DNA of 39,950 nucleotides. Source: Campylobacteraceae bacterium. GTDB lineage: Bacteria > Campylobacterota > Campylobacteria > Campylobacterales > Sulfurovaceae. Below, in pieces: positions 10,412-17,802 of this stretch; within the stretch, counting starts at the first letter, position 1; the number at the start of each line of letters is the position of its first letter. Position numbers and translations under genes: made by a program. The DNA is taken from positions 1 to 39,950 of the forward strand of contig JALVUD010000014.1 in the NCBI GenBank assembly GCA_027035765.1, written 5' to 3'. The notes below the pieces were generated by a model, which did not search any database, was not told the origin of the DNA, and was given only the letters and a program-made list of their open reading frames with translations.

Positions 10412-10440
10412 TATAATCTCTTATTATAAAAGATAAGGAG
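10412..10440 (+). promoter_or_regulatory. Promoter -10 and ribosome-binding site of the selenoprotein gene
   Basis: TATAAT at 10412-10417 is a consensus -10 element, and AAGGAG lies at 10435-10440, five bases before ATG 10446. No strong -35 is seen. The short leader makes the upstream ATG the clear start of the UGA-containing frame. Confidence 0.65.
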
Positions 10441-10445
10441 AACGG

Positions 10446-10838
10446 ATGAAACGAATCGTTTTCACTCTGTTGGGCCTCCTCTTTCTCAGTAGTTTTGCTT
10501 CAGCAGCCGGATGGCTGCACGACTATGAGGCGGGATTGGAGAAGGCCCAGAAAGAGCACAAGCTCGTTTTGATGATGTATGTCAAAAAGACCTGACCGGT
10601 CTGCAATCGTATGGAACAGGCTGTTCTACCACAAAAAGATGTTGCGGATCTGCTGGCGAAGCATTTCGTCACGGTCATTCTGGATATTGACGACGACATG
10701 CTGCCCGAAGGCTTCGGCTACTTTGCCGTCCCGACTTTTTACGTCATCGACGCAAAAGGCAATAAGCTCGATCGGGCTGTGGGCGGTGCGGATGTCCAAA
10801 CTTTCCTGGAATTTCTTCAAAAGTTCATCAAGGAGTAG
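10446..10838 (+). CDS. Exported thioredoxin-fold selenoprotein (UxxC active site, UGA read as Sec)
   Basis: One frame runs from ATG 10446 to TAG 10838, interrupted only by TGA at 10593-10595 (codon 50). Read with Sec it gives 130 residues: signal peptide 1-20 (hydrophobic core LLGLLFLSSF, then ASA), HKLVLMMYVKKT, then U50-P-V-C53, and after it the thioredoxin-fold elements FGYFAVPTFYVIDAKG with the cis-proline motif VPTF. The TGA replaces exactly the first Cys of a CxxC redox motif, as in SoxW/DsbD-like periplasmic thioredoxins. A SECIS-like hairpin follows. The protein probably reduces disulfides or oxidants in the periplasm. A plain gene-finder splits it and calls only the piece from 10611. 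The alternative is a nonsense pseudogene, but the exact placement argues against this. Sec-machinery genes (selA, selB, selC, selD) must lie elsewhere. Confidence 0.85.
10593..10628 (+). promoter_or_regulatory. UGA selenocysteine codon with bacterial SECIS-like hairpin
   Basis: TGA is at 10593-10595. Bases 10612-10618 (TGGAACA) pair with 10622-10628 (TGTTCTA) to give a 7-bp stem including one G-U pair. The loop is GGC (10619-10621). The loop begins 24 bases after the UGA and has G in its first positions, which fits the published pattern for bacterial SECIS elements (small apical loop with an early G, roughly 16-37 nt downstream). An alternative stem pairs 10597-10603 with 10617-10623. Confidence 0.7.
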
Positions 10839-14030: not shown

Positions 14031-14804
14031 ATGTCTCTGTACGATCCCGAAAAACGTGGAAAGAAAAAGGTGGTTCTCACGGAAGACGGCACCGCCACCC
14101 TCTACTCCGCCGAATTTGACGAGTGCTATCACTCCACCCACGACGGAGCCCTCAGAGAGTCCCTGCACAAACATATCCTCCCCGCCTTCAGCCTGGCCGA
14201 AACCGACAAAGAGGAGCTGGTGGTCCTGGATGTCTGCTTCGGGCTGGGCTACAACACCCTGGCGACACTCCATTATCTACAGGAACACCCTATCGATGCC
14301 AAAGTGAAAATCTACTCCCCCGAATTCGATCGGGAGCTGGTGGCTTCGCTGACCGACTTCGACTATCCCGAAGTCTTCGCCCCCTTCGCCGGGATCATCC
14401 GGCAGTTGGCCGAGCAGGGATCCTACAGCGATGAGAAGGTAAAGATCACGATCCTCTTCGGCGATGCGAGAGAGACGATCCCAGAGATTCCGGATCGGAT
14501 CGATATCGTCTATCAGGATCCGTTCAGTCCGAAGAAAAACCCCCTCCTCTGGACCCGAGAGTATTTCGCTCAGATCCGAGCCAAAGCTTCCGAGGATCTG
14601 ATCCTCACCACCTACTCCAGCGCCACACCGGTGCGGATGGGGCTGTACGAAAACGGCTTTCTGCTCTACGACCCCCCCGGTGAGGAAGTTCGGCCCGGCA
14701 CAATCGCCTCAAAGAAACCCCTCAAGCTGAAGCCCGTCGATATGGAACTCAAAAAACAACGCAACCCCCAAGCGGCTTCCCTACGGGATGCCATGTTCCG
14801 CTAA
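14031..14804 (+). CDS. mnmD: MnmC-like methyltransferase domain protein (tRNA wobble-uridine modification)
   Basis: MnmD-type enzymes carry only the methyltransferase half of MnmC, completing 5-methylaminomethyl-2-thiouridine at tRNA position 34. The 257-residue protein has the family start [20 protein letters not shown] followed by [12 protein letters not shown], the SAM-binding [15 protein letters not shown], and the catalytic-region motif [17 protein letters not shown]. No FAD-oxidase half is attached. A GAGGGGAA site and a -10 box support the start. Its 3' end overlaps the longest possible mutS7 frame. Confidence 0.88.
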
Positions 14805-17802
14805 CATCCCCGACACCCTCACTATGGTAAAATCTCCCAAACAAAAAGAAAGAGGCGGAGTGGATCGGGCGACGGAGATTCTCAACCAAAAGGGCAAACT
14901 GCTCACCGAAATCTATTTCGAGCTTCAGCGCTACTACGAGGAGCGCTACGGGCCCGACGCCCTGGTCTTCATCGAGGTGGGCAACTTCTTCGAGGTCTAC
15001 GAGGTCAACAACGAAGAGCTCAAGATCGGCAAGGCCAAAGAGATCGCCGAGTTTCTCAACATCCAGCTGACGCGCAAAAACAAAACCATCCTGGAAAACT
15101 CCGTCACCAACCCCCTGATGGCCGGCGTCCCCACCATCAGCCTGGAGCGCTACCTCTCCCGGCTGGTCCAGAGCCGCAAATACACCGTCATCCTGGTGCG
15201 TCAAAAGGGCACGCCCCCCAAGGTCAAACGCTACATCGGCAACATCATCTCTCCCGGTACCAACTTCGACTACCAGAACGACGCCAAAGAGAACAACATC
15301 GTCTCGATTCTCGTGGACGAGAACCGGGGGATCTACTCGGTAGGCTACGCCGCCATCGACGTCACCACCGGCAAGACCCTGGTCAACGAGATCCACTCCA
15401 CGCGTGACGACCGGACCTTCGCCCTGGATGAGCTTTTTAACCTGCTCCAGAGTTACCACAGCTCCGAGGTGATCCTCACCCTGGCCAACAGCGAGATCGA
15501 TCCCGAATGGCTCCTGGGCTATCTGGAGATCAAAAACCTTCCCCACAGCTTCAATGAGTCCCACCCCCGCATCGCCTACCAGAACGAACTCTTTGCCCGG
15601 GTCTTCGAGATCCGCTCCCTGCTGAGCCCCATCGAATATTTGGATCTGGAGCGCTACCCCCTCACCACCGAGGCCCTGGCGATCCTCATCGACTTCATTA
15701 TCGAACACGACGAGAGCCTCATCGAAAAGATGAACCGCCCCCAGTTTCTGGGAAACAACCGCTACCTCTACCTGGGCAACAACGCCCTGGAGCAGCTGGG
15801 GGTCATCAGCCGGGACCCCTCCGAGGTGACGCTGCTGGAGCTTATCGACCGCAGCTCCACCGCCTTCGGCAAGCGGCTGCTCAAGGAACGGCTCCTCAAC
15901 CCCGTCTGCGATCCGGAGATCCTCAACGCCCGCTACGACCTGAGCGAACGGGTCGCACCGCGCAGCGAGCAGTTCGCCACCCGTCTCAAGCAGATCTACG
16001 ACCTGGAGCGCCTGGCACGGCGGATCAAGCTTCGCCGCCTCCACCCGGTAGAGCTGACCTACGTCGCCATGTCCATGGAGGGGATCGAGGGGCTTTTCGA
16101 CCTCTGTCGGGAGTCGGGGATCGAGGTGGAGGCCGCCCTGGAGAGTGAAAGCCGGGAGTTCTCGCGCACGCTGGAGCAGAGCTTCGATCTGGAGCGCTGC
16201 GCCCGTTTCCGCCTGGATCAGATCGACGACAATATTTTCCGTGAAGGGATCCACCCCGCTATCGACGAGCTGGTGGAGCAGCAGCGCCGGGAGCTGGAAA
16301 AGATCGAAGCCGTCGCCCGTCACATCGAAGCGCTCTTCGACCGGGACCGCCTCCTCTCCACCGCCAACGGCTCGGTGGTACAGGTGGGGTATCTGGAGAG
16401 TGAGGGGTATCACCTCGCCCTGACCAAATCCCGCTTCAACCAGATCGAAAAGGAGCTCAAAGAGAGCTACGTCACCCTGGAAGGGGAACATATCTTTCTG
16501 CGGGATTTCCGCTTCAAAGTCCTCAAGAGCGTCGTCAAGATCCACGCCCCCGTCTTCGAAGAGATCACCAAGCGTGTCGAATCGGCCCGGGTCAAACTGG
16601 TGGCCCTGGTCAAAGAGCGCTATCAGCTCAGCCTCGAAGAGATCGAACGGCGACACTCGCTGCTGCTGGAGCGTCTGGTCGCCTTCATCGCCGATATCGA
16701 CGTGGCCGTCAGCAACGCCCGCTGCACCCGCTGGATGCACCTAAGCCGTCCCATCCTCGAAGAGGGAAACTTTTTTGAAGCGATCGCCCTGCGTCACCCC
16801 ATCATCGAAGCCAACGAAAAGCACGGCATCTACATCCCCAACGATGTTTATCTCGGTGAACCCAACGGCACGGCCCACGATCACATCATGCTGGATTCAA
16901 GCGGGGACGAAGAGGTCCGGGGGGTCCTGCTCTATGGGATCAACTCCAGCGGCAAATCTTCTCTGATGAAGAGCGTAGGCCTGGCGGTCATCCTGGCCCA
17001 GGCGGGCTTTTTCGTTCCGGCGGTGGAGCTGCGGATGGGAATCTTCCGCAAACTCTTCACCCGGATCGTCAGCCGGGACAACCTCTACAAGGGGCTCAGC
17101 ACTTTCAGTGTGGAGATGCTGGAGCTCAAAAACATCTTCAACCGTGCCGACGAGCGCTCCATCGTCCTGGGCGACGAGATCAGCCAGGGAACCGAAACCC
17201 TCTCGGCTCTGGCGATCGTCAGCAGCGCCATTCTGCGCCTGGAGGAGCTGGGGGCCCGCTTTATCTTCGCCAGCCATCTGCACCAACTGGCCGAGGTGGA
17301 GGCAGTACGCAAGCTCAAGCGGCTGATTTTCCTGCACCTGGGTGTGCGCTACGACGCCGCCACCGACCGGCTCATCTACGACCGCAAGCTCAAGATCGGC
17401 CTGGGGGATTCCCTCTACGGCCTGGAGTTCGCCCGCAGCCTCCATATGGACGAGACCTTCCTCCGCCGGGCTTCCGAGATCCGCGAGGAGCTGGTCTCCG
17501 GCGGCAGCGAGCTCAAAAAGCTCAAAAAGAAAAAACGCAGCAAATACCACAAAGAGCTCTACGTCGCCCAGTGCGCCCTCTGCGACGCCCCCGTGGAGGA
17601 GGTCCACCACATCACCCCCCAGCACGTGGCCGACGACGCCGGCCATATCGCCCACTACCACAAAAACCACCGCTACAACCTCATTCCGCTCTGCAAAAAA
17701 CACCACGAGATGGTTCACAAAGGCGAGATCGTCATCAGCGGCTTCGTCATGACCAGCGAGGGGCTGCAACTGCATTATGAAGAGAAAAATAATAGTGGGT
17801 AG
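14788..17802 (+). CDS. mutS7: MutS7-type mismatch repair protein with C-terminal HNH nuclease
   Basis: The long frame gives 1004 residues. The N-terminal mismatch-recognition domain keeps the F-x-E type motif ([10 protein letters not shown], Phe68-Glu69). Connector, lever and clamp domains follow. The ATPase has Walker [14 protein letters not shown] (about residue 717) and Walker [15 protein letters not shown] (about 790). A basic linker ([14 protein letters not shown]) leads to an HNH domain (about 927-990: [28 protein letters not shown]). This MutS-plus-HNH layout matches the MutS7 subfamily known from Campylobacterota, some giant viruses and octocoral mitochondria. It may cut DNA itself, replacing MutL/MutH; that part is inference. 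ATG 14788 overlaps mnmD and lacks a good RBS. GTG 14860, after AGAGG, is the more likely start. The stop lies in a heptamer array. Confidence 0.92.

Follow-up and report, generated by a model that had tools for sequence, protein, structure and literature searches.

The analyses presented here indicated, with high confidence, that the gene at positions 10446 to 10838 (forward strand) encodes a genuine selenoprotein, in which UGA codon 50 of a thioredoxin-fold protein is read as selenocysteine (Sec). The window (i.e., the whole 39,950-nucleotide stretch of DNA that was analyzed) is contig C14 of a 2.03-Mb genome that is 99.9% complete and belongs to the Nitratifractor group, and the nearest named records to the gene were Nitratifractor sp. 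metagenome assemblies. The first-pass annotation had proposed the Sec reading by following the rules for bacterial selenoproteins, and that reading was supported by the Sec machinery of the genome, by homologues that carry Cys or UGA at this codon, and by the presence of TGA in 12 assemblies. Each of the three observations that the annotation had named as refuting was checked for, and none was obtained. A group of deep-sea-type bacteria shares the UGA form of the gene by conservation, and it adds a well-supported selenoprotein to the chemolithoautotrophic Campylobacterota.

Frame translation and Pfam matches indicated that the gene is complete and that it codes for a thioredoxin-like protein (PF13098, Thioredoxin_2) of 130 residues that ends at a TAG stop codon. 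The lone in-frame TGA was located at 10593 to 10595, where it supplied the U of TUPVC, and the frame was otherwise open to the TAG; the earlier description of a frame broken only at codon 50 (T-U-P-V-C) proved exact in its coordinates when it was re-checked. A ribosome-binding site (AAGGAG, 10435 to 10440, forward strand) was found 5 nt upstream of the ATG. We also observed a TATAAT box at 10412 to 10417, about 30 nt 5' of the ATG, which is possibly the -10 element of the promoter of this gene. The N-terminus of the product was hydrophobic and signal-like, and the segment encoded by 10446 to 10508 (forward strand; MKRIVFTLLGLLFLSSFASAA) is a probable Sec-type signal peptide, a region in which the structural model was of low confidence. 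Two further residues, which were also encoded on the forward strand, were invariant in alignment A1: Cys53 (10602 to 10604), the predicted resolving cysteine of UxxC, and Pro96 of VPTF (10731 to 10733), which occupies the cis-Pro position of the thioredoxin fold and adjoins model strand 97-101.

When the TGA was translated as a residue, PF13098 scored 42 bits against a gathering score of 27, and PF13899 and PF03190 were also above their gathering cut-offs. None of the NCBIfam models reached its cut-off on the selenoprotein, and this included the three seleno-exceptions TsoB (22.2 versus a curated cut-off of 805), Trx7/PDZ (25.5 versus 300), and VPGUxxT (18.3 versus 275). Because no NCBIfam model was reached, automatic annotation probably truncates the protein; standard gene callers split the gene at the UGA, and it is probably overlooked as a rule. 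The active-site motif was a poor guide in itself. Fifty-six UxxC or CxxU motifs, including the one at codon 50, were found in the TGA-read-through frames of the window; thus, such motifs are frequent by chance, and it is the conservation across species, rather than the motif alone, that provides evidence.

Eleven of the 175 genomes in the family, including the genome examined here, contained the gene with exactly one TGA, which was aligned with codon 50 in all cases. A 12th UGA form (L071, genome G276) came from outside this family but within the same order; its product was 42% identical, and its hairpin was in the same register. In total, UGA orthologues were present in 11 other Campylobacterota genomes that represented three genera and two families, with identities of 42 to 89%. 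More distant homologues from other genera had an open frame with a Cys codon (TGT or TGC) at codon 50, and in the comparison set of 12 UGA forms and 17 Cys forms, the column at which a first active-site Cys had been expected contained Cys or UGA.

These data bear on whether positions 10593 to 10595 are in fact TGC or TGT and were misread or misassembled as TGA. The window comes from a draft assembly of 47 contigs, and Cys is the residue that would be expected at this position, both of which fit such an error. However, the same TGA was present in 11 other assemblies, and one of these has been finished as a single contig of 2,101,285 bp. The orthologues thus refuted a misread codon, which we regard as vanishingly improbable.

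A second possibility is that UGA has been reassigned throughout the genome, or that it is read as Trp or another residue and not as Sec, as read-through of the UGA would yield an identical open frame. In contrast to this idea, TGA is a normal stop codon in the window, where it terminated 16 of the 33 genes tallied, and it also terminated four orthologues of the selenoprotein gene, which excluded genome-wide reassignment. Those four orthologues (L040, L043, L044, and L047) used UGA at the internal Sec position and again as their own terminal stop. The homologues carried Cys, and not Trp, at codon 50, and the genome contained a full set of Sec machinery together with a Sec-type selD, as described below. 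Reassignment or a Trp reading is therefore extremely improbable.

The frequency of TGA stops lends some support to a third possibility, namely that the gene is a pseudogene or that translation truly ends at UGA50, with the downstream half dead or separately started, since UGA was the commonest stop codon in the tally. This idea was refuted by conservation and is, in our view, very improbable. Twelve genomes shared the identical TGA, even where identity was as low as 42%, and the hairpin was retained only in the UGA forms. In addition, a strong synonymous excess was observed past the UGA wherever dS could be estimated. Specifically, comparisons with the eight nearest orthologues over the 70 codons past the UGA yielded dN values of 0.03 to 0.22 and dS values of 0.46 to 1.8, the dN/dS ratios were about 0.06 to 0.12, and the changes were mostly at third positions. 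The large excess of synonymous over amino acid changes indicated that the downstream half is translated.

Reading UGA50 as Sec would require a dedicated machinery. The first-pass annotation had suggested searching the genome for selA, selB, selC, and selD, and selA, selB, a tRNA-Sec, and selD were all present. The selA and selB genes were adjacent on contig C34 and scored 523.8 bits (NCBIfam cut-off, 267.9) and 289.5 bits (NCBIfam cut-off, 242.25), respectively; the tRNA-Sec, which had a UCA anticodon, was located about 1.6 kb beyond the end of selB. The frame of the selD gene (L067; C26:729-1646, minus strand) was interrupted by a single TGA, which lay within the GUAAK site (AAGUAAK). Because selD itself is in the Sec form, UGA must be read as Sec in at least one other gene of this genome. 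A 6-bp hairpin with a GGG loop was also observed in selD, and this loop started 17 nt past the selD UGA.

The distribution of the machinery among the genomes that carry the UGA form was consistent with the Sec reading. A tRNA-Sec was found in 9 of these 12 genomes and SelA was found in the other three, so none of the 12 lacked both. The three consisted of G276, which was outside the tRNA-Sec search, and the incomplete assemblies G038 and G043, in which no tRNA-Sec scored above the cut-off and SelA was present. In the case of the g5 genomes G029 and G030, the tRNA-Sec was detected with laxer filters and ARAGORN. One member of the genus (G047, 99% complete) had no SelA, no tRNA-Sec above the cut-off, and no copy of the gene. 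Cys forms coexisted with tRNA-Sec in some genomes (e.g., G085 and G118), which indicated that the Cys form is independent of loss of the machinery. When 29 sequences were placed in an unrooted tree, all 12 Sec forms were set apart from the others by a single branch, which had support values of 93/90 and was recovered in 92% of the bootstrap trees. As the root is not fixed, the tree does not prove the direction of the change between Cys and Sec.

The remaining element is a predicted bacterial SECIS hairpin at 10612 to 10628 (forward strand). Its 7-bp stem (UGGAACA/UGUUCUA) was formed by arms at 10612 to 10618 and 10622 to 10628, which enclosed a GGC loop at 10619 to 10621. The stem started 17 nt past the UGA, exactly as had been noted before, and the gap between the UGA and the loop was 23 nt. 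Published bacterial SECIS elements have a stem of 4 to 16 bp and a loop of 3 to 9 nt that is located 16 to 37 nt past the UGA and requires G in its first two positions (PMC13188914), and the hairpin described here falls within this geometry. A stem of 6 to 7 bp with a GG-N loop was found in one register in all 12 UGA forms; in nine Cys homologues, the same register paired at 0 to 1 positions. Stems of the observed length appeared in register in 0.4% of synonymous-codon shuffles of the window gene. Two-sided covariation was confined to one pair, which changed from G-C to A-U in the distant members; L071 showed the identical change, and the overall covariation was modest, as 14 of 500 shuffles were equally high. 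The 17-nt hairpin alone had a folding energy of -4.3 kcal/mol, and the 51-nt region reached -10.2 kcal/mol but did so as a competing structure; the bacterial SECIS criterion is -7.5 kcal/mol or lower. The fold-energy z-score of the region was -0.7, which means that the local energy was not exceptional, and no Rfam family matched the region. Thus, the energy of the hairpin is unremarkable, and the support for a SECIS element is comparative, not thermodynamic.

To what use might a Sec residue be put in this protein? The AlphaFold2 model had a thioredoxin fold (pLDDT 86) in which residue 50 starts the active-site helix and Pro96 lies just before the next strand. The nearest solved relatives by sequence and fold included a putative disulfide isomerase (2kuc, by sequence), a domain from Bacteroides that is related to cytochrome c biogenesis (3f9u), a Thermus thermophilus thioredoxin, the C-terminal (gamma) domains of DsbD, and DsbH. 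Based on a thioredoxin fold close to that of DsbD-gamma and DsbH, the mature form most likely works as a thiol-disulfide oxidoreductase in the periplasm, and we consider a role as a disulfide reductase reasonably probable. Thioredoxin-fold proteins of such size also act as oxidants, isomerases, or peroxide- or metal-handling proteins, and no neighboring gene was informative in this regard; it is possible, if somewhat doubtful, that the protein is decoded with Sec and has one of these roles instead. The sequence and fold, however, are near those of the reductive modules DsbD-gamma and DsbH, which argues for the reductase.

The genes flanking the selenoprotein gene were conserved within the genus and gave no hint of function. 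Two of them, which were on the other strand, resembled genes for an FAD-dependent oxidoreductase and a phosphoglycolate phosphatase, and the third conserved neighbor encoded a small stress-type membrane protein. Farther along the window, 14788 to 17802 (forward strand) encoded a 1004-residue protein that was assigned by eye to the MutS family and had a C-terminal HNH-type motif (i.e., a MutS/HNH fusion).

During translation, SelB carrying Sec-tRNA(Sec) would bind the hairpin 17 nt 3' of the UGA, and UGA50 would be decoded as Sec to generate a U-P-V-C active site. If the protein is a disulfide reductase, Sec50 would then attack a substrate disulfide, Cys53 would resolve the selenylsulfide, and a membrane DsbD-type reductase would supply the electrons. 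The DsbD transmembrane domain was found in a frame of 652 residues in this genome and in a second frame that was CcdA-sized. In this scheme, we infer Sec insertion in the cell, export, redox direction, electron donor, and substrate.

Our literature search found no paper that named the Nitratifractor member, and the terms selenoprotein and Nitratifractor co-occurred only in passing. A survey from 2015 that covered the selenoproteins of Epsilonproteobacteria refers in its main text to one "thioredoxin" and mentions neither Nitratifractor nor Sulfurovum. Compared with the Cys-form thioredoxin-like proteins of other Campylobacterota (WCPECNYM type), which are 33 to 44% identical, the selenoprotein shares the domain, the cis-Pro, and the signal-like N-terminus, whereas the Cys forms carry Cys at the Sec position and lack an in-register SECIS hairpin. 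Such pairs of a Sec form that has the hairpin and a Cys form that lacks it represent a clean natural series for studies of Cys-Sec exchange. The DsbD C-terminal domain and DsbH are similar to the selenoprotein in thioredoxin fold, probable periplasmic location, and CxxC site. In contrast to them, the selenoprotein is small, single-domain, probably secreted, and not fused to DsbD, it has Sec for the first Cys, and it does not reach the NCBIfam cut-off for either. Selenocysteine thioredoxins (PF00085) also have UxxC in a thioredoxin fold, but the Nitratifractor protein has a signal-peptide-like N-terminus and scored 20.2 against the PF00085 gathering score of 23.5.

The nearest known kind is the "Thiol:disulfide interchange protein" selenoprotein family, which has PF13098 and UxxC (e.g., WP_011366075.1; Table 1 of PMC13188914; also PMC9312934), and PF13098 selenoproteins with UxxC have been reported in Geobacter and Syntrophus (PMC1794560). 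Since this family was already in catalogues, the novelty implied by the first-pass annotation was overstated. It is unlikely, though conceivable, that the UGA forms are a Campylobacterota-specific Sec lineage of a periplasmic PF13098 thioredoxin that arose by a single change from Cys to Sec with a new SECIS element, forms a subfamily apart from the catalogued deltaproteobacterial one, and has a dedicated role in sulfur or nitrate respiration. The protein described here has the same best-hit Pfam domain as the catalogued family, one Sec, and a UxxC site with the Sec first (U50-P-V-C53), a likeness at the level of domain and motif; it differs in that its host belongs to the Campylobacterota. The Nitratifractor protein is, then, a solidly supported additional member of a kind of selenoprotein that has already been catalogued.
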